In this document: positions 23,090 to 33,628 of the stretch, in pieces
How the letters are laid out: every line of letters starts with the position of its first letter
Numbering within the stretch: the stretch's first letter is position 1
DNA from: Spirochaetaceae bacterium
GTDB lineage: Bacteria; Spirochaetota; Spirochaetia; Treponematales; Treponemataceae
Length of the DNA stretch: 57,186 nucleotides
Assembly (NCBI GenBank): GCA_017614995.1
Contig: JAGAAX010000013.1
Coordinates: forward strand, 1 to 57,186
Direction: 5' to 3'
Program-made: the position numbers and the translations under genes
The notes under the pieces: generated by a model
What the model was told of the DNA's origin: nothing
What the model saw: only the letters and a program-made list of their open reading frames with translations
Database searches by the model: none

Positions 23090-24298
23090 TCATTTGCCGG
23101 AAGGCACTGCTTCTACAGAGCCTTTTGCAAGCCTAATTGCCAAAACAGTATTTGCTGAAACTTCTTCAGCATTTCTGATGATTTTTCCAGTTTTTTTGTC
23201 GCGCACAATCGCAAAGCCTCTGTCGAGAATCTTCTGCGGATTTGCGCTTTCAAGTTTGTGTTCTGCAAGAACAAGCCTGTTCTGCGCCTCTGTTATGCGG
23301 CTTTTCATTTCGCCGCATAAAGTGTCTCTTGCGCTGTCAAAACGCTGAACCAGCGGCGAGAGCATTTTGCGCAAATGCAGTTCCATTGCCTCAAGCGAAA
23401 AGCTTTGAAGCAAAAGCCTGCCATGCGCAATTCTGTTCATCAAAAGCTCGTACATTTCTGCTGCGCTGTTCTGCAAAAACTCATAAGTGTCTTCTTTTAG
23501 CGGAGTGACAAGCTCCGCGGCGGCAGAAGGCGTAGGCGCGCGCAAATCAGCGGCGTAATCGCTTAAAGCCGTATCAACTTCATGGCCGACTGCGCTTACA
23601 ATTGGAATTCTTGACGCGGCTACAGCTCTTACAACGCCTTCGTCAGAGAAGGGCAGCAAGTCTTCAAGAGAACCGCCGCCGCGCCCGACTATAAGCACGT
23701 CTGCAATATCAAATTTATTTGCGGCTTCAATCTGCCTGATTATTGTTGGCGGTGCGTCGTTGCCCTGCACAATACATGGAAGAATAACAATCGAAATAGA
23801 ATTGTTTCTGCGCTGTGTAATGTTCAGAATGTCTTGAAGCGCGGCGCCGTTCGGGCTTGTTATAACGCCGATTGTTCTTGGAAATCTTGGAAGCGGACGT
23901 TTTTTCGCCTGGTCAAAAAGCCCTTCGGCGGCAAGCTTGCGTCTAAGTTCTTCTATCGCCTTTAGAATGTCGCCTGTTCCGGCCTGTTCCATCGTGTCAA
24001 CGACAATCTGATATGCGCCGCGCTGTGCATAAACAGAAATAGAGCCTTTTACGCGCACAGTCATGCCGTCTTTCGGTATAAAATCTAGATAGCGTGCCTT
24101 TCCCTTAAAAAGAACCGCCGAAATTGCCGCGCCTTCATCTTTTAAGGTGAAATAATAATGACCGCTGCTTGACGGTTTAAAATTGGAGATTTCACCTTCA
24201 ATAATTATAGACTGAAAACATGCCTCTAACGAAGTCTTTATATATGCGGTCAGTTCAGAAACAGAAAATGTAGTATCTTTAGGAAAAAGTTCTGTCAC
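23090..24298 (-). CDS. xseA: Exodeoxyribonuclease VII large subunit
   Basis: The 402-residue subunit has an N-terminal OB-fold (about 8-105, with GEISNFKPSSSGHYYFTLKD), a catalytic domain holding IGVITSPNGAALQDI and VGRGGGSLEDLLPFSDE, and a C-terminal coiled-coil that binds XseB. ExoVII degrades single-stranded DNA in both directions and acts in mismatch repair and damage tolerance, which fits its coupling to mutL. The start codon is GTG with AAAGGA about 8 nt upstream. The promoter must lie in the 38 bp between this gene and the divergent SPASM gene. Confidence 0.95.
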   Translation of the reverse strand: MTELFPKDTTFSVSELTAYIKTSLEACFQSIIIEGEISNFKPSSSGHYYFTLKDEGAAISAVLFKGKARYLDFIPKDGMTVRVKGSISVYAQRGAYQIVVDTMEQAGTGDILKAIEELRRKLAAEGLFDQAKKRPLPRFPRTIGVITSPNGAALQDILNITQRRNNSISIVILPCIVQGNDAPPTIIRQIEAANKFDIADVLIVGRGGGSLEDLLPFSDEGVVRAVAASRIPIVSAVGHEVDTALSDYAADLRAPTPSAAAELVTPLKEDTYEFLQNSAAEMYELLMNRIAHGRLLLQSFSLEAMELHLRKMLSPLVQRFDSARDTLCGEMKSRITEAQNRLVLAEHKLESANPQKILDRGFAIVRDKKTGKIIRNAEEVSANTVLAIRLAKGSVEAVPSGK

Positions 24299-24336: not shown

Positions 24337-25890
24337 ATGAAAACAATTGTTATCCTTTTTGCCGGAACCGCAGGCGAATATGCATTTTCTCCGGTTTTTG
24401 ACGGAAAATCTGCATCAGAGCGTGCTTTAAGTTGGGCTGAAAAAGTTCCGGGTGCAGATACTGTCGCAGTTCTTTCTTTGCAGAATCAGACACCGCTAAA
24501 TAGTTTATCAGTAGAAAAGCTCTCGTTCAAGCATATTGTACAAGAAAAATGGACTGTTTCTCTTCTGCTTAAAACTATAGCTGAAATTTCTTCCGGTTTT
24601 GATGCAATTGTTTACGGCTTTATAGACGCGCCTTTTTACAGCACCGAAATTACAGCCGGATTATTGGAAACATTCAAAAAATACGGCGCAGAATACTGTT
24701 TTGCAGACGGTTATCCGGCAGGGCTTGCTCCTGAAATAATTCACCACGACACAGCAAATATTTTGGCTGGTCTTGCAAAAGACAATGACGCCGCCGTAAG
24801 CCGCACCAGCATTTTTGACGTGCTTAAAATTGACATAAACGCTTTTGAAATAGAGACTGAAATTGCGCCGAAAGATTTGCGGAGTTTGCGCGTAAGTCTT
24901 TACTGTGGAACAAAAAGAGACGCGCTTCAATGTGAGCGGCTTTATTCACTTATGCAAAAATCAGACAAAGACATCTGTTCTATAATTGAATCATCAGCCG
25001 ATGTGCTTAGAACTTTGCCGGCTTTTTATTCAGTTCAAATAGCGTCTGCCTGCAAAGGTACATGCACATTCTGCCCGTACCCAAAAGCATACAAAGACAG
25101 ATTCAGCATAAGTGCCGAAAAATCTTGCGAGCTGATGCCTGTTGAGAAATTCAAAGAAATTGTTGATAAAATCTCTGACTTTTCAGATGATGCTGTCATT
25201 TCGCTCTCTCTTTGGGGAGAAGCGCTGCGCCATAAAGATTTGGCGAAAATCGTAGAGATTGTTCTTGAAAGGCCGGGACTTTCTGTGCTTATAGAAACTA
25301 CAGGCGAAGATTTGACGCCGGAAACAGCAGAGCAGATTGCCAAAGTTGTGGCGGGTGCAAGTCCGCGCAAAAACGGCCAGAAGCCTGTAAACTGGATTGT
25401 GGACATAGACTCGGCCGACGAAAGCATGTACCAGACTCTGCATGGCAACAACGGTTTTGCAAAAGCTGTGCAGGCTGTAGAAATGCTTCTGCCGCTTTTC
25501 CCAGATGCGGTTTATCCGCAGTTTTTGCGTATGCAGGAAAACGAGCTTCACATGGAGGCATTTTACCGCTATTGGAAAGAGAAGTGCGGCAAAGCGATAA
25601 TCCAGAAATACGATTCATTTGCAGACAGACTTGTGCAGCGCAAAGTTGCAGATTTAGCGCCTGTTCATAGAAATCCCTGCTGGCATATCCGCCGTGATAT
25701 GAGTATATTGATTAACGGTGATGTTCCGCTTTGCAGAGAACATATCTTTGACAATATTTGCGGCAACATATTCAAAGACAAGATAGAGGATATATGGCAG
25801 AAAGGTTTTGAAACCTTTAAATGTCATATCAACCAAGAATATAAAGGATTATGTAAGAACTGTGATGAATACTATACCTTTAATTTTTAA
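24337..25890 (+). CDS. Radical SAM/SPASM protein of the spirochaete type (spiro-SPASM)
   Basis: From ATG 24337 the protein has 517 residues (a GTG at 24319 would add six). Residues 1-220 look like a nucleotidyltransferase or GT-A-like fold (TIVILFAG start, then a DAIVYGFIDAPF segment). The radical SAM core has the C-x3-C-x2-C cluster C239, C243, C246, followed by SPASM-type cysteines near the C-terminus (PLCREH, ICGN, FKCH, GLCKNC). This matches a family I recall as limited to spirochaetes (spiro-SPASM). SPASM enzymes use extra Fe-S clusters to modify peptides, proteins or small molecules. It heads a cluster of four overlapping or abutting genes with sugar-modifying enzymes. The substrate is unknown. 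Confidence 0.8.
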   Translation: MKTIVILFAGTAGEYAFSPVFDGKSASERALSWAEKVPGADTVAVLSLQNQTPLNSLSVEKLSFKHIVQEKWTVSLLLKTIAEISSGFDAIVYGFIDAPFYSTEITAGLLETFKKYGAEYCFADGYPAGLAPEIIHHDTANILAGLAKDNDAAVSRTSIFDVLKIDINAFEIETEIAPKDLRSLRVSLYCGTKRDALQCERLYSLMQKSDKDICSIIESSADVLRTLPAFYSVQIASACKGTCTFCPYPKAYKDRFSISAEKSCELMPVEKFKEIVDKISDFSDDAVISLSLWGEALRHKDLAKIVEIVLERPGLSVLIETTGEDLTPETAEQIAKVVAGASPRKNGQKPVNWIVDIDSADESMYQTLHGNNGFAKAVQAVEMLLPLFPDAVYPQFLRMQENELHMEAFYRYWKEKCGKAIIQKYDSFADRLVQRKVADLAPVHRNPCWHIRRDMSILINGDVPLCREHIFDNICGNIFKDKIEDIWQKGFETFKCHINQEYKGLCKNCDEYYTFNF

Positions 25891-26830
25891 TCAGCGTCAG
25901 ATTCAGCGCACCGTTATCGGCGGTTCTGAATTTGTAGCACCGCTTGAGCAGTGTCTGCCTATTTCGATTGTTATTATAAACCGCGGTGCGCGGCAATATA
26001 GAAGCCAGATTTTTCAGCGCCTGCAGAATTTCAATTTCAGACAGATTATTTTTGTCGAGCAGGCCGGCAACGATTACGAGCTTGAAAATCTGACAAAGAC
26101 ATATCCGTTTGTGAAATTTCTTGTTCCGCTTGAGAAAGTTACTGTCGGCGACCTTGTAAATATGGCTGTAAGCGAAGTTGACACCGAATACGCACTTGTT
26201 CTGTGGAATGACACCTCAATTAAAGGCGACAATCTCTCGCGGAGGTTTGTCGAGAAGGTAATATCTGAACAGATTTTGTGTCAGGTTCCGTTTTTGTCAA
26301 CCGTAAGCCGGCAGGATCTTCCTGTTCAGATGGTGCCTTCAATGCCGGGCAATATTTTTACCGTAAATCCTTGTATGACATACAAAGACAAAGCCCCGAC
26401 ACTTTATCCGTTTGATTTTATCGGCTTGTATAACTGCGAAAAATTCAAGCAGCTCGGCGGCTTTGACTACACAATAAAGAACAGCTATTGGCAGAACATG
26501 GACTTTTCATTCAGAGCCTGGCTTTGGGGCGAAGAAATCCGGCTTGCAAGCCTTTTTAAGGTTGAATATCAGGAAGAAGTTATTCCAGAAGACACAACGA
26601 GAGATTTCTCTTATCTAAGATTTTACTTAAAGAATATTGCGCCTATTTTCAAGATGGACCACGCCGATTTGCCGCGCAAAAAGATGTTCAAATACATTTC
26701 AAAGGCACATTTCGGTCTTTTTGACGCAATCAGAGACTTTAACGATGCGCGCCAGTGGATAGAAAAGAACAAATACCGCTTTAAGAATGATTCCAAGATT
26801 TTTATTGATACGTGGGGAAGTCTTATATGA
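25865..26830 (+). CDS. GT-A-like glycosyltransferase
   Basis: I choose ATG 25865, which overlaps the end of the SPASM gene by 26 nt; the open frame extends upstream to 25808. The 321-residue product has a family-2-like glycosyltransferase layout: PISIVIINRG at the first strand, a segment ending ALVLWNDTSI where a D-x-D-like metal motif is expected, and LGGFDYTIKNSYWQNMDFSFR resembling the acceptor region GGFDE...EDxDLxxR. The C-terminal part is helical (FKYISKAHFGLFDAIRDF). It probably transfers a sugar in the cytoplasm. Its stop overlaps the next start (ATGA), giving tight coupling to the SpsF-PseG-methyltransferase fusion. Confidence 0.65.
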   Translation: MNTIPLIFNQRQIQRTVIGGSEFVAPLEQCLPISIVIINRGARQYRSQIFQRLQNFNFRQIIFVEQAGNDYELENLTKTYPFVKFLVPLEKVTVGDLVNMAVSEVDTEYALVLWNDTSIKGDNLSRRFVEKVISEQILCQVPFLSTVSRQDLPVQMVPSMPGNIFTVNPCMTYKDKAPTLYPFDFIGLYNCEKFKQLGGFDYTIKNSYWQNMDFSFRAWLWGEEIRLASLFKVEYQEEVIPEDTTRDFSYLRFYLKNIAPIFKMDHADLPRKKMFKYISKAHFGLFDAIRDFNDARQWIEKNKYRFKNDSKIFIDTWGSLI

Positions 26831-29274
26831 CAATTCTGGTTATTCAAAGCAGACTTTCTTCTACACGTTTGCCTGAAAAAGCGTTGCTTCCTCTTGGCGG
26901 AAAACCTGTACTCGCATGGGTTTTTGCTGCCATGAAAAAAGTTAAGGCTGACAGGTACTTTCTTGCTACAGATTATGATTCCGAAGCAAGGCTTAGACCC
27001 GTTGCTGAAGAAAACGGCTTTGAATGTTTTGCAGGCCCTAAAGACGATGTATTGCGGCGTTTCTGCATGTTAATTGAACAGACTGAAGCAGACACCGTCC
27101 TTAGAGTGACAGGCGACAATCCGTTTTTGTTTTACGAGGCTGCGTCTGCAACAATCTCAAGATTTTCAGAGTTGAAATGCGACTATTTCACATATTCAGG
27201 CTTGCCGCATGGAAGCGGTGTTGAAATTTTTGACGCGCACTCTTTGTTAAAGGCTGAAAAACTTACGCAAGACCCTTATGACCACGAGCATGTAGGTCCT
27301 GCGCTTTATAACCATAAAGACGTTTTTAACGCTGTTTTTGAGCAGGCGCCTGAAAAATGGTTTTATCCAGAACTTAGAACGACCATAGACACCGCAGAAG
27401 ACTACAGACGCGCCCAGTTTATGTCTGAAAAGCTCGAAAGCCCTGCCGAAGCTGAAAAAATCATAAGCGCGGCAGAAAAAGCCCAAAAGCACATTCTTTT
27501 AGTTCCGTCTGTAAAAAAAGGGCATGGCACAGGGCATTTGAGACGCTGCATAAGCCTTATGAAAGACGTTCTTGCAGATTTGTACATACCGGAAAGCGCA
27601 GATTTGCCCGGCTTAGACGAGCTTTTGCAGGATGTTCCGTCTTATGCAATTAAAAAAGACTTAGAAAACATAAAAGAGAGCTACAGTCTTGTTGTAACAG
27701 ACGCATTTTCGCTTGAAAAAGACGAAGTGCGCCGTTATTCGGCAATTGCGCCGCTTGTTTCAATTGACGAAGGCTCTTTGTACACAGAATATTGCGATTA
27801 TATTCTGGATATAATTCCTGCTTTTCAGTATAAGCGAAAGGCAAACATGACTTGCAGCGGTTTTATTCCGCTTCCTGAAAAGCGCAGAAGCTCTATGCCT
27901 AAGACAATCGAAAAAGTGCTTGTCGCTGTCGGCGGCGAAGACCCTGCCGGGCTTACAATTCCAGTGGCAAAAGCTTTTGCAGAGAACGGCTGCAACGTAA
28001 CGGCGCTTGTCGCAAGCAGAGAGAATTTAGAGCAGATACGCGGCGTGCGCTACTTGGAGTTTTCGCCGAATTTGCGCGAAAGACTTTATACATTTGATTT
28101 GGTTGTAACACATTACGGCTTTACGGCTTTTGAGGCTGTTGCAGCGCAGTGTGCTGTGCTTCTGCTCGGCACAAGCCCGCTTCATATTGATTTGGCGCGC
28201 AACTTCGGTTTTTCAGTCTTGCTAAAAAATGAGCTTAACACAGAAAAAGTGAAAAAACTGCTGCAAAACATACAGAAACTGTTTCCAAAGTCAAAAGAAA
28301 TGGTTGCTTTGCGCGAATGTGAAAATCAAAGTCTTGCAGATTTTATAAACAAGCTTGCTTCAGGCGAAAAAATCGGCTGTCCTATTTGTTCCGCTGAAAA
28401 ACATAAGCGAAAAAGCCCTGACGAAGTTGTAATCCGTCTTGAAAACAGAACTGTAAGAAAATGCTCTTCTTGCGGAATGCTTTATTTAAGCTGGTCTGTG
28501 GACGAAAAAAAGCAGTATTCGGCTTCTTATTTCTTTGATGACTATAAAAAACAATACGGAAAAACATATCTTGAAGATTTTTCTTCGATAAAGTCGCAGG
28601 GCGTAAGACGCTGCGGCATAATTGACGAGCTTTTTTGGAAGCACAGGCTTTACAGCGGCAGAAAAGCAAGGACAGTTTTTCCGTTTGTTCTTGACGTAGG
28701 CTGTGCTTACGGGCCGTTTTTGTCTGCCGCACACGACGCCGGCTGGAACGTATTCGGCACAGACATTTCGGCAGAAGCTGTAGCTTATGTTGCAGAGACC
28801 TTGCAGTACAAAGCATGTAAGGCGGCTTTTCCAGGCATAGACACAGAAAAAGCGTTTGAAACTGAAAAATTTGATGCCCTTACCATGTGGTTTGTCATTG
28901 AGCATTTTCAGAATCTTGCGCCTGTCTTGAAAAAAGTGAACAGTTTGCTTAAAAAAGGCGGGATATTCGCATTTTCAACGCCGTCTGCTTCGGGCGTTTC
29001 GGCTAAATTCAATAAAGAGAAGTTTCTGACGCAGAGCCCTGTAGATCATTATTCGTTGTGGCAGCCAGAGTTGTGCAACTCTATTCTTGGAAAATTCGGC
29101 TTTAAAGTTGAAAAAATCGTCTCGACAGGGCAGCACCCGGAGCGGTTTCCGTATTATGAGAAGCACGAATTCAAGCCGGAAGGCTTTATGTACAGGCTGC
29201 TCTCGCTTTACAGCTCTGCCGCCGCGTTGGGCGATACTTTTGAAATTTATTGCGTCAAAGTGAAGGACTTATAA
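26827..29274 (+). CDS. Three-domain fusion: SpsF-type cytidylyltransferase, PseG-like domain, methyltransferase
   Basis: The 815-residue protein has three parts. Residues 1-210 match SpsF/CMP-sugar cytidylyltransferases (VIQSRLSSTRLPEKALLPL, then VLRVTGDNPF). Residues 225-510 match SpsG/PseG, the UDP-sugar hydrolase/GT-B-like family, with the Gly/His loop GHGTGHLRR (232-240) and VVTHYGFTAFEAVA near the C-half. A zinc ribbon (C518, C521, C546, C549) then leads into a class I SAM methyltransferase (DVGCAYG, 623-629). SpsF and PseG proteins act in nonulosonic acid and related glycan synthesis. The fusion joins activation, hydrolysis or transfer, and methylation in one chain. The start ATG overlaps the stop of the upstream gene, and the next gene starts 1 nt after its stop. 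Confidence 0.8.
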   Translation: MTILVIQSRLSSTRLPEKALLPLGGKPVLAWVFAAMKKVKADRYFLATDYDSEARLRPVAEENGFECFAGPKDDVLRRFCMLIEQTEADTVLRVTGDNPFLFYEAASATISRFSELKCDYFTYSGLPHGSGVEIFDAHSLLKAEKLTQDPYDHEHVGPALYNHKDVFNAVFEQAPEKWFYPELRTTIDTAEDYRRAQFMSEKLESPAEAEKIISAAEKAQKHILLVPSVKKGHGTGHLRRCISLMKDVLADLYIPESADLPGLDELLQDVPSYAIKKDLENIKESYSLVVTDAFSLEKDEVRRYSAIAPLVSIDEGSLYTEYCDYILDIIPAFQYKRKANMTCSGFIPLPEKRRSSMPKTIEKVLVAVGGEDPAGLTIPVAKAFAENGCNVTALVASRENLEQIRGVRYLEFSPNLRERLYTFDLVVTHYGFTAFEAVAAQCAVLLLGTSPLHIDLARNFGFSVLLKNELNTEKVKKLLQNIQKLFPKSKEMVALRECENQSLADFINKLASGEKIGCPICSAEKHKRKSPDEVVIRLENRTVRKCSSCGMLYLSWSVDEKKQYSASYFFDDYKKQYGKTYLEDFSSIKSQGVRRCGIIDELFWKHRLYSGRKARTVFPFVLDVGCAYGPFLSAAHDAGWNVFGTDISAEAVAYVAETLQYKACKAAFPGIDTEKAFETEKFDALTMWFVIEHFQNLAPVLKKVNSLLKKGGIFAFSTPSASGVSAKFNKEKFLTQSPVDHYSLWQPELCNSILGKFGFKVEKIVSTGQHPERFPYYEKHEFKPEGFMYRLLSLYSSAAALGDTFEIYCVKVKDL

Positions 29275-29275
29275 A

Positions 29276-30898
29276 ATGAAAAAACATCATCTGCTTATGC
29301 TTGGAGCCGGTTTTATGCAGAAGCCGGCAATTGAAAGTGCAAAAAAATTAGGCTGGCGCGTAACTGTTGTAGACGGAAATCCAAAGGCGGTATGTGCTTC
29401 TTTGGCAGACGCTTTTGAACCGATTGATTTGAAAGATACAAAAGCTCTTATAGAATTTGCAAAAAAACTGAAAGAAACAGAAAATCTTGACTGTGTTTTT
29501 ACGGCAGGCACCGATTTTTCAGCTTCTGTTGCGGCAATTGCAGAAGCCTGCGGTTTTAACTCTCATTCACTTGAAGCGGCGCTGAACGCAACAGACAAAA
29601 GCCGCATGAGAAGCCGCTTTGCTTCTTACGGCGCACCGTCGCCAAAATTTATTGAAACTGATTCCGTTATGGCACAAAGAATTAACGACTGCGCGCTTAA
29701 AAGCGGCAAATGGCCTTTTGACGAAAAAACATTTCCTGAAAAATATCCTCTTGTTGTAAAGCCGGTTGACAATATGGGCGCGCGCGGCTGCATCACAGTG
29801 TTTTCGCTAAGGGAATTAGCCGAAGCCGTACAGACTGCTGTGCCGCTTTCAAGAACAGGTCGTGCCATTATCGAAGAATACATGGACGGTCCGGAATTTT
29901 CGATTGATTCGCTTGTTTTTGAGGATAAGCTTATAATTACAGGCTTTGCGGACAGGCACATTTATTATCCGCCTTATTTTATTGAGATGGGCCATACAAT
30001 GCCGACTGAGTTCAGTGAAGAGGACAGAAACGCTGTTATTAAGGCTTTTGCAAAGGGCGTAAAGGCTTTGGGCTTGTCGTGCGGCGCTGCAAAAGGCGAC
30101 ATGAAGCTTACATCAAACGGCGCTATGATTGGCGAAATAGCCGCGCGTCTTTCAGGCGGCTACATGTCCGGCTGGACTTTTCCCTATGCAAGCGGCTTAA
30201 ATTTGACAGAACAGGCACTTTTTTTAGCTTCTGGCGAAAAATCTCCAATTTTTGATGACGGAAATTTGAAGAAGTTGCCGAAAATTGCAAATGGAGTATG
30301 GTATCTTCCACCTGAAAAGTGGAGTGCCGAGCGTGCCTGGATTTCAATTCCGGGCAAGGTTCAGTCTGTTTCGGGTTTAAAAGAAGCTGAGAAGATAAAG
30401 TTTCTTAAAGACATTTTTCCAAGAAGCGGTGAGGGCGACACAGTCGTTTTTCCGGAGAACAATGTCGAAAAATGCGGAAACTGCATCTCAAAAGCAGATA
30501 CCAGACTTAAGGCTGTTAATGCTGCAGAAGATGCTGTCGCATCTATAGAAATACGTCTTGAGCCTTGTAACGCAGAGACTAAAGACTTTCTTGAGAGCCG
30601 GAAAACATTTCCGCCTTCAGCATTTCAGGTCAGTGCTGATGTTGCGGCAGACATAGATGCAATTGCTGATGAGCGCATCTTTGATTCAAGCATTGGATGG
30701 GAATGCCAGATTCCACATTCTTTGCGCGCTTATCTTGAGGCAAAAGACTGGAACCACCGTACGATGAAGTCGGTGCTTGACAGGTTTATAGAGCTTGAGC
30801 CTTCAGCAAAACTGAAGATGAGAACTTTCTGGCGTTATTTGATTAGGGGAAGTTTGCAGGGCGTGCTTTTTGCAGTTGATTCATGCAAAAAAAACTGA
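29276..30898 (+). CDS. ATP-grasp ligase
   Basis: The 540-residue protein starts with a Rossmann-like preATP-grasp fold (LMLGAGFMQKPAIESAKKLG) and continues as an ATP-grasp domain (about 110-330) with YPLVVKPVDNMGARG, IIEEYMDGPEFSID and the metal-binding GEIAARLSGGYMSG. It most resembles carbamoyl-phosphate synthase or D-Ala-D-Ala-type ligases that join an acid to an amine using ATP. A C-terminal extension of about 200 residues has no recognised fold. In this operon it could attach an acyl or amino acid to an aminosugar. The start is 1 nt after the previous stop. The 3' end overlaps a possible longer start of the next gene. Confidence 0.75.
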   Translation: MKKHHLLMLGAGFMQKPAIESAKKLGWRVTVVDGNPKAVCASLADAFEPIDLKDTKALIEFAKKLKETENLDCVFTAGTDFSASVAAIAEACGFNSHSLEAALNATDKSRMRSRFASYGAPSPKFIETDSVMAQRINDCALKSGKWPFDEKTFPEKYPLVVKPVDNMGARGCITVFSLRELAEAVQTAVPLSRTGRAIIEEYMDGPEFSIDSLVFEDKLIITGFADRHIYYPPYFIEMGHTMPTEFSEEDRNAVIKAFAKGVKALGLSCGAAKGDMKLTSNGAMIGEIAARLSGGYMSGWTFPYASGLNLTEQALFLASGEKSPIFDDGNLKKLPKIANGVWYLPPEKWSAERAWISIPGKVQSVSGLKEAEKIKFLKDIFPRSGEGDTVVFPENNVEKCGNCISKADTRLKAVNAAEDAVASIEIRLEPCNAETKDFLESRKTFPPSAFQVSADVAADIDAIADERIFDSSIGWECQIPHSLRAYLEAKDWNHRTMKSVLDRFIELEPSAKLKMRTFWRYLIRGSLQGVLFAVDSCKKN

Positions 30899-30921
30899 AC
30901 GCAAATATAAAGAAGGAATTG

Positions 30922-31968
30922 ATGAAACACTTAAATCGTCTGCTTGGATTTTTTATATTTTGTTCTGTATGTTTTTTTGTAAATGCACAGTCTGCAAGCT
31001 TTGTTCCTTTAATTGAAGGGGCAAATCAGATAGGGGCAAAACTTTACTGGGATTCTCTGGCCGGTATAGGTGTTCTTGAAAAAGACGGACACTCAATGCA
31101 GTTTAAGACCGAAGACCAGATTGCGCTGTTTGATTACAGAACTTTTGAGATTGTTGACGCTCCGAAAATTGTCAACGGTTCTGTGTTTGTGTCAAACAGC
31201 TTTATTACGCGGGCAGAAAACTTTTTCGGCAATTCAAAGCCGGTCGCTCCAGACTCTCTGTTTAAGATTGGCGCGATATTGATTGACCCGGGGCATGGCG
31301 GAAAAGATACAGGTGCTATCGGAAAGCACACTGTAAACGGAAAGAGTACGCAGATTTATGAAAAAGATGTTGTGCTTAAGGTTGCGGAAGATTTGTATAA
31401 GCAGCTTAAAACTGCTTATTCAGATAAAAAAATATACATGACCAGAAACGACGATACTTTTTTGTCTCTGGAAGAGCGTGTTGAAATTGCAAATAATACC
31501 CAATTGGGCGAGCATGAAGCTATTTTGTACATTTCTGTTCACGCTAATTCGGCTTTTGACAAAAAAGCTTCTGGTTTTGAGGTCTGGTATCTTAGTCCGG
31601 GATACCGCAGAACAATTCTTTCAGAAGATGCTGCTGATAAGGAAATTCTGCCGATACTGAATTCGATGCTCGAAGAAGAATTTACAACCGAAAGCATTTT
31701 GATTGCTAAATTCATTCTTGACAGTCTGAATACGGAAATCGGCAAAGAAAGTCCGAACCGCGGCTTGAAAGAAGAGGAGTGGTTTGTTGTCAGAAATGCC
31801 AACATGCCGAGCGTTTTAATTGAAATTGGCTTTGTAAGCAACCAAAAGGAGGCTCTGCTCTTAGCGGATGACAAGTACTTGCATAAAGTAGCATCAGGTA
31901 TATATAATGGACTTGCATCATTTATAACTCATTTTGAACAGTCAAGGGGTTTTACAAGCGGTCAATGA
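30922..31968 (+). CDS. N-acetylmuramoyl-L-alanine amidase (Amidase_3)
   Basis: ATG 30922 has AAGGA nearby and gives a 348-residue product with a signal peptide (KHLNRLLGFFIFCSVCFFVNAQ). The catalytic domain (about 115-340) carries the zinc ligands of the Amidase_3 family: His in ILIDPGHGGKDTGAIG, Glu in YEKDVVLKVAED, and His in YISVHANS, plus the C-terminal Glu in SVLIEIGFVSN. It cuts the amide bond between MurNAc and L-Ala in periplasmic peptidoglycan, as in daughter-cell separation or flagellar growth. The N-terminal 90 residues form a small beta-rich domain. It overlaps the next gene by 4 nt (ATGA). Confidence 0.9.
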   Translation: MKHLNRLLGFFIFCSVCFFVNAQSASFVPLIEGANQIGAKLYWDSLAGIGVLEKDGHSMQFKTEDQIALFDYRTFEIVDAPKIVNGSVFVSNSFITRAENFFGNSKPVAPDSLFKIGAILIDPGHGGKDTGAIGKHTVNGKSTQIYEKDVVLKVAEDLYKQLKTAYSDKKIYMTRNDDTFLSLEERVEIANNTQLGEHEAILYISVHANSAFDKKASGFEVWYLSPGYRRTILSEDAADKEILPILNSMLEEEFTTESILIAKFILDSLNTEIGKESPNRGLKEEEWFVVRNANMPSVLIEIGFVSNQKEALLLADDKYLHKVASGIYNGLASFITHFEQSRGFTSGQ

Positions 31969-32438
31969 TAATGTCTGATGTCGGGGCAAAACCAAAAAGT
32001 GCCGGTATTACCGTTGTATTTTTTGTTATTTTATCTTTCGTAGTTTCATTTTTTTTGTATGAAATCAATAATAAGGGAACACGAAGGGTTATTGTTTTTG
32101 AATCTAAGACAAATCCGAAAGAATTGTCTTATGAGGTAAGGTTTCTGAAGAAGCCTTTAAATAAAGATGCTGTAAACCAGTATGTCGATGAACTTTTGCT
32201 GGGGCCTATTTCGCCTCAGGGACGGCTGTTGTTTCCGTTAGGAACAAAGGTGCGGTCGTGCTTTGTTGAAGGAAATGTCCTGTATCTGGATCTTTCAGAA
32301 GATGCACTACAGATTTTTCCGACTGAAGCATCAGACAGTGTTACAGCAATAAAGATTTTGAAAAAAAATCTTTTTACAAATTTTAAAAACATTGATATAA
32401 TTAATGTGTTCATTATGGGCAAAAGGGTGGAGGCCTAG
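31965..32438 (+). CDS. Membrane-anchored GerMN-like protein
   Basis: The 157-residue protein has a membrane anchor near residues 14-33 and a periplasmic domain (45-157) that fits the GerMN fold: ELSYEVRFLKKPLNKDAVNQYVDEL, then LLFPLGTKVRSCFVEGNVLYLDLSEDAL. GerMN domains occur in germination and cell-wall-related proteins and in LpqB-like lipoproteins. In a spirochaete the natural role would be in the envelope, next to the co-transcribed amidase with which it is translationally coupled. I am fairly sure of the fold but not of the function. Confidence 0.65.
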   Translation: MIMSDVGAKPKSAGITVVFFVILSFVVSFFLYEINNKGTRRVIVFESKTNPKELSYEVRFLKKPLNKDAVNQYVDELLLGPISPQGRLLFPLGTKVRSCFVEGNVLYLDLSEDALQIFPTEASDSVTAIKILKKNLFTNFKNIDIINVFIMGKRVEA

Positions 32439-32467: not shown

Positions 32468-32495
32468 TTGACAAATCAAATAAGTTACGTATACT
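32468..32495 (+). promoter_or_regulatory. Sigma-70 promoter of flaA
   Basis: TTGACA (32468-32473), 16 nt, then TATACT (32490-32495). It lies 42 nt before the flaA ATG, with AAAAAGGAGCTT as the ribosome-binding site. This near-consensus promoter fits a highly expressed gene. It is not a sigma-28 motif, consistent with flaA genes in spirochaetes using the housekeeping sigma factor. Confidence 0.85.
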
Positions 32496-32537: not shown

Positions 32538-33575
32538 ATGAAGAGAACATTCATTCTTGTCGCAATGGCTTTCCTGATGGTAGGAATGCTTGCAGCTGAA
32601 GAAGCAGTAATTATTGATTTTACTAACTTGTCAGCTGACATTATTCAGGGCGCTGATGGTCAGATGACTCAGAACCGCCACACAACAATGGACTACTCTG
32701 TAAGTGCAGGTGCTACTTTCACTGATCAGCAGAAGTCTTTGATGAAGTCTTCCCTCGCATTTAAAAACTGGGAAGTTGTTCTTAACTCTTCTGCTAGAAA
32801 TGCTGTTAGCACAGCTCTTTCACAGACAGCTGCTGCTCCTGTAAAAGCAGATGCAAGAGTACCTTTTGCAGGTAAAGAAATCTTGGGTGCACGTATCTTA
32901 TTCCCAACTTCACCTGTAAATGCTAATGCCCGCATCGTACCTCCATTCGATATTCCTGCTTTCGAAGCAGCTGCTGAAGTAAATGACAATGGTGAAGTAC
33001 AGCCAGCACAGGCTTCTATTACAACAGCTACACGTTTCGAAGGTGGCTATGGTGTTCTTAAAAATGTTGGAACAATCAAAGCCCTTTCTGTAACAACACA
33101 GGGTATGAACTATCCACACGGATTGTATGTTCTTCTTAAGGACTCAGAAGGTGTTGAAAAACGCTATTTCATGGGTTACCTCAACTTCGACGGTTGGAAA
33201 GAACTCAAATGGACAAACCCTGCATATATCCAGGAAGTAAGAGCACGTGAAATCCGCTTGCTCCCAATCTATCCAACAACAACACCTTATGTTAAGTTTG
33301 CTGGATTCCTTCTTACTCGTGATGCAGCTGACATCGGTGGCGACTTCGTTTGCTACTTCAAAGATGTAAAAGCTATCTACGACAAAGCTGTTCTTACAAC
33401 AGAACGCGATATCGCTGATGAAGACATTTGGGGTATCGTTTCTGAACGCGAAAGAGCAAAGCAGAACCTCGAAATGACTAACTTTGGTCAGAAACAGGTT
33501 TACAGATTCCTTGAAGCTGAAAAACAGGCTACTGAAAATGCTTTCAGCTCAAGCCTTGAAGGCGAAGTTAAATAA
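32538..33575 (+). CDS. flaA: Flagellar filament outer layer protein FlaA
   Basis: The 345-residue exported protein matches FlaA, the sheath protein that surrounds the FlaB core of spirochaete periplasmic flagella. The signal peptide ends near MLAAEE (residue 20), and the mature protein begins AVIIDFTNL, a known FlaA-type start. The body contains the conserved YGVLKNVGTIKALSVTTQGMNYPHG region and a WKELKWTNPAYI segment involved in the beta-sandwich. It has its own strong promoter and terminator, so it is a single-gene unit. No other flagellar genes are adjacent apart from the FliG-N-like gene 17 kb upstream. Confidence 0.9.
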   Translation: MKRTFILVAMAFLMVGMLAAEEAVIIDFTNLSADIIQGADGQMTQNRHTTMDYSVSAGATFTDQQKSLMKSSLAFKNWEVVLNSSARNAVSTALSQTAAAPVKADARVPFAGKEILGARILFPTSPVNANARIVPPFDIPAFEAAAEVNDNGEVQPAQASITTATRFEGGYGVLKNVGTIKALSVTTQGMNYPHGLYVLLKDSEGVEKRYFMGYLNFDGWKELKWTNPAYIQEVRAREIRLLPIYPTTTPYVKFAGFLLTRDAADIGGDFVCYFKDVKAIYDKAVLTTERDIADEDIWGIVSERERAKQNLEMTNFGQKQVYRFLEAEKQATENAFSSSLEGEVK

Positions 33576-33598
33576 TTAATATTTAACTGCATTCAAAA

Positions 33599-33628
33599 GT
33601 CCGGGATTTTATTCCCGGGCTTTTTTTT
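33599..33628 (+). terminator. Rho-independent terminator of flaA
   Basis: An 8-bp GC-rich stem (33599-33606 with 33613-33620, one T-G pair), a 6-nt loop and eight T residues. Confidence 0.95.

Follow-up and report, generated by a model that had tools for sequence, protein, structure and literature searches.

The closest described system to the genes treated here is the flagellin glycosylation of Treponema denticola, whose FlaB proteins bear a 450.2-Da glycan that is essential for filament assembly and motility (PMC9481697) and carry two glycosite motifs, VEVS and DRIAS (PMC7431986); in Leptospira, putative FlaB1 glycans have been seen by cryo-electron microscopy at the core-sheath interface (PMC13144727). 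A second described system is the pseudaminic-acid pathway of Campylobacter and Helicobacter (PseB-C-H-G-I-F plus Maf). Here we analysed a block of four genes in a 57-kb window, the whole of contig G000:C51 of a 3.05-Mb treponeme genome, with respect to these systems. The T. denticola glycan is a nonulosonic acid (NulO; Kurniyati and colleagues, 2017, cited in PMC9481697). It is taken here to be mono-acetylated, with a 2-methoxy-4,5,6-trihydroxyhexanoyl amide at N7. A residue of this structure has a calculated mass of 450.185 Da (published mass 450.2), and making it would require the methylation of an oxygen and the attachment of a polyhydroxy acid through an amide bond. To our knowledge, no genes have been assigned to the extended acyl part of this glycan, and we know of no published assignment of the genes of this block to it.

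The four open reading frames (ORFs), each single and on the plus strand, overlap or abut one another at 24337-25890, 25865-26830, 26827-29274 and 29276-30898, as the first-pass annotation had described. They correspond to a spiro-SPASM protein, a predicted GT-A glycosyltransferase, a fusion of SpsF, PseG-like and methyltransferase domains, and an ATP-grasp ligase. We consider it probable that the spiro-SPASM protein, the fusion protein and the ligase are the locus-specific part of a pathway making an acidic NulO for the FlaB proteins of the periplasmic flagella, that the GT-A gene is unrelated to this pathway, and that the conserved role of the spiro-SPASM protein is a non-radical one. T. denticola ATCC 35405 (G190) itself has the spiro-SPASM, GT-A and fusion genes together with PseB/PseC-like, NeuB and Maf-family genes, and its glycan is known.

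To follow the distribution of these genes, 159 Spirochaetota genomes and 228 genomes of the class Spirochaetia (177 with flagellin and 51 without) were searched. Across the phylum, flagellin was found in 158 genomes, spiro-SPASM in 151 and NeuB in 152; spiro-SPASM was missing from seven Borreliaceae (family f7) and from the sole flagellin-negative genome (G175), and NeuB was missing from the same seven Borreliaceae. Within the class, spiro-SPASM rose above background in 137 of the 144 flagellated genomes outside Borreliaceae, in 0 of 33 Borreliaceae and in 0 of 51 flagellin-negative genomes. The seven flagellated non-Borreliaceae genomes without it were drafts of 85-95% completeness, which is about the number of missing cases expected from draft incompleteness. 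The same contrast was found inside one family (f10), where genus g146 has flagellin, spiro-SPASM and NeuB and genus g45 has none of the three. The fusion protein was matched in all 20 spiro-SPASM genomes tested, with weaker matches to its separate domains outside the class, and nothing above background was obtained for it in 2 Borreliaceae and 13 flagellin-negative genomes. Maf-family transferases (PF01973) were present in 2-5 copies in 18/18 spiro-SPASM genomes, in 0/2 Borreliaceae and in 1/13 flagellin-negative genomes; members of this family act on flagellin in other bacteria. This co-occurrence with flagellin, NeuB and Maf-family transferases is that expected of a flagellin NulO glycosylation system.

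Gene order pointed in the same direction. The order spiro-SPASM, GT-A, fusion and ATP-grasp was found in 66 of 99 related loci (many of the others lie on short contigs) and was the same in class families f1, f5, f6, f8, f9, f11 and f12, so that a chance arrangement is ruled out. Of the 57 loci whose downstream sequence extends for 9 kb or more, 55 have an amidase gene and flaA after the block on the same strand, and a GerMN gene was recognised in 53 of these. In the window these genes are an N-acetylmuramoyl-alanine-amidase-like gene (30883-31968, plus strand; named from its sequence and prior knowledge), a gene for a GerMN-domain-like protein (31965-32438, plus; named from its sequence) and, 99 bp beyond it, flaA for the periplasmic flagellar sheath protein (32538-33575, plus). 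The block had earlier been placed near flaA but outside its operon; it is more than near, being directly upstream of the amidase-GerMN-flaA series, although flaA does have a consensus-like promoter site of its own at 32468-32495. No strong terminator was found in the window between the block and flaA, and a good one follows flaA at 33595-33624. Taken with the phyletic data, this synteny gives good support at the pathway level to flagellin-type NulO glycosylation, as the first-pass annotation had proposed, and the finding that would have refuted it, a cluster in spirochaetes without such glycans, did not turn up, as the zero counts given above show.

The same data bear on the possibility that the NulO made by the block goes into a polysaccharide or lipid glycan of the cell surface and not onto flagellin. 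NeuB, SpsF and PseB/C-type enzymes serve capsules and lipopolysaccharide (LPS) too, and a true NeuB (E < 1e-40) was retained in 2 of 20 flagellin-negative genomes. However, the block itself is absent from every flagellin-negative genome (51/51), stands directly upstream of flaA in 55/57 loci, co-occurs with multiple Maf-family transferases and is present in a T. pallidum-sized genome, T. pallidum being a species that lacks LPS. We therefore regard a surface glycan as quite unlikely and retain flagellin as the probable acceptor.

The third ORF of the block was resolved into an SpsF-type cytidylyltransferase (residues 1-215), a PseG-like GT-B hydrolase (about 216-510) and a Zn-ribbon with an S-adenosylmethionine (SAM) methyltransferase (about 518-815). 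The first domain matched CTP_transf_3 (E 4.6e-30), with the Leptospira borgpetersenii structure 6OEW as its best solved match (E 7e-19), and its QxRxxSxRL signature (Q7, R9, S12 and R14) was at least 97% conserved in 85 rows. The catalytic-His motif GxGHxxR of the PseG-like domain (G234, G236, H237 and R240) was likewise at least 97% conserved in 75 rows; this stretch scored below the TIGR03590 equivalog cut-off (26 vs 153.6 bits). The last part matched Methyltransf_23, with conserved Zn-ribbon cysteines (C518/521/546/549) and SAM motif (D623-G625). The fourth ORF matched ATP-grasp_4 (50.5 bits) and LAL_C2, the C-terminal domain of L-amino-acid ligases (53 bits, above cut-off), and is thus a candidate amide-forming N-acyl ligase. 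By their families, the fused methyltransferase and the LAL_C2 ATP-grasp protein are natural candidates for the methoxy and amide steps of the glycan.

The remaining enzymes of such a pathway were found elsewhere in the window genome, where a NeuB-family synthase with a SAF domain stands alone on contig G000:C46 (L059) and PseB-like and PseC-like genes lie side by side on G000:C39. Both of the latter genes were present in spiro-SPASM carriers and were neighbours in most. In the proposed route, the PseB-like and PseC-like enzymes would make a UDP-amino sugar from which the PseG-like domain would remove UDP; the NeuB-family synthase would then condense the sugar with phosphoenolpyruvate, the SpsF domain would charge the product with CMP, and Maf-family transferases would add the NulO to FlaB. 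Formation of the N-acyl amide would fall to the ATP-grasp ligase, and that of the methoxy group on the extended acyl chain to the methyltransferase. Homologues of PseB, PseC, PseG, PseI/NeuB, the CMP-transferase and Maf thus occur alongside flagellin as in Campylobacter and Helicobacter; unlike there, the spirochaete homologues score below cut-off, the SpsF, PseG and methyltransferase domains are fused, and an ATP-grasp ligase and the spiro-SPASM protein are additional.

The first ORF matched TIGR04321 over residues 4-517, that is, at full length, with 575 bits (cut-off 250). Its N-terminal part (about 1-220) has a nucleotidyltransferase fold resembling SpsF both by profile (hhalign 97.7%, E 2e-12) and by structure (Z 20.4 to 6OEW), followed by a radical-SAM barrel (about 225-440) and a twitch/SPASM cluster. 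The first-pass annotation had named the SPASM protein, the fusion and the ATP-grasp ligase correctly, and only this SpsF-like domain was missed. Close as the N-domain is to 6OEW, the Q-x-R-x-x-S-x-R-L nucleotide-binding signature is absent from it; the neighbouring SpsF domain retains the signature. The barrel was modelled as a partial TIM barrel (predicted local distance difference test score, pLDDT, 93; Z 18-23 to SuiB, BtrN, BlsE and DesII). BtrN, a twitch-type radical SAM dehydrogenase, was the best solved sequence match (E 1e-5; Z 21.7 by structure) and shares the barrel and a single-cluster twitch domain; it differs in having no nucleotidyltransferase domain, and many spiro-SPASM members differ from it in lacking the SAM-cluster cysteines.

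The state of these cysteines was surveyed in 116 non-identical spiro-SPASM homologues. The CxxxCxxC motif, intact in the window protein (C239, C243 and C246, within residues 239-246), was intact in 66 of them and lost in 50 (43%), while C448, C466, C506 and C509 were present in all 116. With these four ligands, the predicted auxiliary cluster is twitch-like and not a seven-Cys SPASM. The losses included T. denticola ATCC 35405, the T. pallidum-sized genome, T. socranskii (L102) and the f20 genomes (probably Brachyspira). On a FastTree phylogeny from which the motif region had been excluded, the state of the motif needed 10 changes, a soft count given the long branches of this tree, and at least 6 of them were forced by well-supported branches. 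Four loci (L104, L111, L149 and L144) were in intermediate states: of the three cysteines for the SAM cluster, one or two were gone, and close relatives retained all three; such partial rows fit decay.

These results weigh on whether every carrier uses the spiro-SPASM protein as an active radical-SAM enzyme, with the pathway centred on its radical step (a deoxygenation or an alcohol oxidation of the kind known from DesII or BtrN). The motif is intact in the window and in more than half of the homologues, and among the nearest folds are BtrN, BlsE and DesII, enzymes with sugar or aminocyclitol substrates; against this, the motif is lost in T. denticola, whose FlaBs carry the glycan, so radical chemistry of this protein is not needed there. 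A conserved radical step, which had been implied by the first-pass label of a radical SAM/SPASM enzyme, is accordingly unlikely. The conserved role is most likely non-radical (e.g. an SpsF partner or an Fe-S-dependent auxiliary), with radical chemistry most likely retained only in some lineages, the window lineage included. The spiro-SPASM gene is physically paired with SpsF in most loci outside the class, and this pairing, together with the motif loss and the signature-less N-domain, favours a partner or auxiliary role. We tentatively suggest that a catalytically silent cytidylyltransferase-like domain and the invariant auxiliary Fe-S cluster could well make the protein a non-radical partner of SpsF (scaffold, redox gate or regulator) in flagellin-sugar synthesis, with a SAM cluster that is dispensable and has been repeatedly discarded.

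The combination of a SPASM enzyme and an ATP-grasp ligase also recalls a maturation cassette for ribosomally synthesized and post-translationally modified peptides, in which such proteins are found, and SuiB and SkfB are structural neighbours of the spiro-SPASM protein. This candidate was rejected, since the N-domain has a nucleotidyltransferase fold and not that of a peptide-recognition domain, the tightly packed ORFs leave no space for a precursor gene, and the genes that co-occur with the block are those of flagellin and NulO synthesis; we judge it highly improbable.

The second ORF, the GT-A gene, behaved differently from its three neighbours. No Pfam or NCBIfam model matched it; its predicted structure (pLDDT 91) was that of a GT-A transferase, with a Foldseek E of 1e-12 to polypeptide GalNAc-transferases, and the earlier label of GT-A-like was therefore apt. 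For a possible GT27-like enzyme, the metal site showed a single conserved Asp and no clear DxD, and a WQNxDFxxRAWxWG loop was conserved. A place for this protein in the pathway, as the NulO or flagellin glycosyltransferase, was suggested by the position of its gene inside the block in the class and by its fold, since polypeptide GalNAc-transferases modify protein Ser/Thr. However, a profile (A2) built from 43 homologues matched in 2/2 Borreliaceae tested (E ~1e-68) and in 12/13 flagellin-negative genomes, and outside the class gave no matches or weak partial ones and none at full length, though spiro-SPASM is present there. Borreliaceae have the order GT-A-amidase-FlaA and the flagellin-negative genus f10:g45 has GT-A-amidase-GerMN, and in both cases the glycan genes are absent at that spot; nature has here made a deletion that sets the GT-A/amidase pair apart from its three former neighbours. 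The GT-A gene was thus rejected as a pathway member, contrary to the first-pass grouping: such a role is very unlikely, and by its phyletic profile the gene appears to be a class-wide one unrelated to the flagellin-glycan set. As a class-wide pair kept in Borreliaceae and in non-flagellated spirochaetes, GT-A (25865-26830) and the amidase (30883-31968; also L189-L194) suggest that the two share a role in the envelope or in peptidoglycan that does not depend on flagella.

Outside the class, one locus (L076, family f15) has the order xseA-spiroSPASM-SpsF-PseG-MT-amidase-FlaA, where MT is the methyltransferase and xseA is divergent. The arrangement therefore predates the class, and the block seems to have gained its GT-A and ATP-grasp genes later. 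In the window, xseA (23090-24298, minus strand) is likewise the divergent neighbour, and in most loci it bounds the block on the left. A horizontally acquired island was rejected, since the guanine-plus-cytosine fraction of the block (0.42-0.44) is the same as that of its surroundings and the synteny is ancient. In T. denticola (L063) and T. pallidum-sized (L060 and L061) genomes, the block stands apart from flaA and from the ATP-grasp gene. The separated ATP-grasp gene is kept elsewhere in the genome, at L061:7069-8838 in a T. pallidum-sized genome and at G021:C1:576704-578353 in a T. denticola-group genome. A genome-wide search of the genomes of the order gave no ATP-grasp match in five f3 genomes (G043, G046, G049, G051 and G057) and a match in three other f3 genomes.

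Some observations weigh against the favoured reading. Several loci outside the class retain only spiro-SPASM and SpsF together, and in the T. pallidum-like and T. denticola-group genomes just mentioned the ATP-grasp gene has its place outside the block. The two flagellin-negative genomes with a true NeuB belong here too, and the flagellin-negative genomes may represent few independent losses. Furthermore, the window-genome matches fall below the equivalog cut-offs for PseB (187 vs 408 bits), PseC (354 vs 424) and PseI (208 vs 340), as does the PseG-like domain; the NulO may not be pseudaminic acid, and for this reason a NulO pathway is claimed and not one for pseudaminic acid as such.

The candidate acceptor was inspected at the two FlaB glycosites. 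Among the FlaBs examined (L169-L188 and L051-L054), the VEVS and DRIAS sites were Ser in 21/22 and 19/22 of those from spiro-SPASM genomes and Glu/Asp in 6/6 from Borreliaceae, as if the acidic residues mimicked a lost acidic sugar. This is only suggestive, for the Borreliaceae protein differs at 41 fixed positions and, of some nine further columns with conserved Ser/Thr, most are lost in it too; the glycosite pattern is therefore consistent but not decisive.

In the literature searched (open-licence papers), no mention of TIGR04321 or spiro-SPASM was found. The family had already been named; its motif loss and SpsF-like N-domain are reported here, and relative to that literature it is new to place TIGR04321 and the genes beside it in this pathway, to exclude the GT-A gene from it and to find that the SAM cluster has been lost repeatedly. 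The block offers specific, deletable candidate genes across nearly the whole phylum, explains the difference of Borreliaceae and gives an orphan family a likely role. A radical-SAM fold that has dropped its SAM cluster repeatedly and its auxiliary cluster never is, moreover, a natural experiment on auxiliary-cluster function.

A second conserved block was found around the PseB-like and PseC-like genes, which are followed by a xanthine-dehydrogenase-like trio of Mo-binding large, 2Fe-2S and FAD subunits (L159 on G000:C39, 5964-12006; L160 in the T. pallidum-sized genome, 6264-12592). The order was kept in T. pallidum-sized, f6, f9, f8, f11 and f10 genomes (some partly recognised), and most of the flagellated Spirochaetia examined have the block; T. 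denticola has its PseB-like gene some 14 kb off. An oxidation in the same pathway may be carried out by this second block. Its 2Fe-2S subunit in the T. pallidum-sized genome (L160:11270-11734) is without the Cys motif of the first cluster (GSHGHGENGAST) and Fer2_2 alone was recognised in it, a loss which parallels the cofactor loss in spiro-SPASM.

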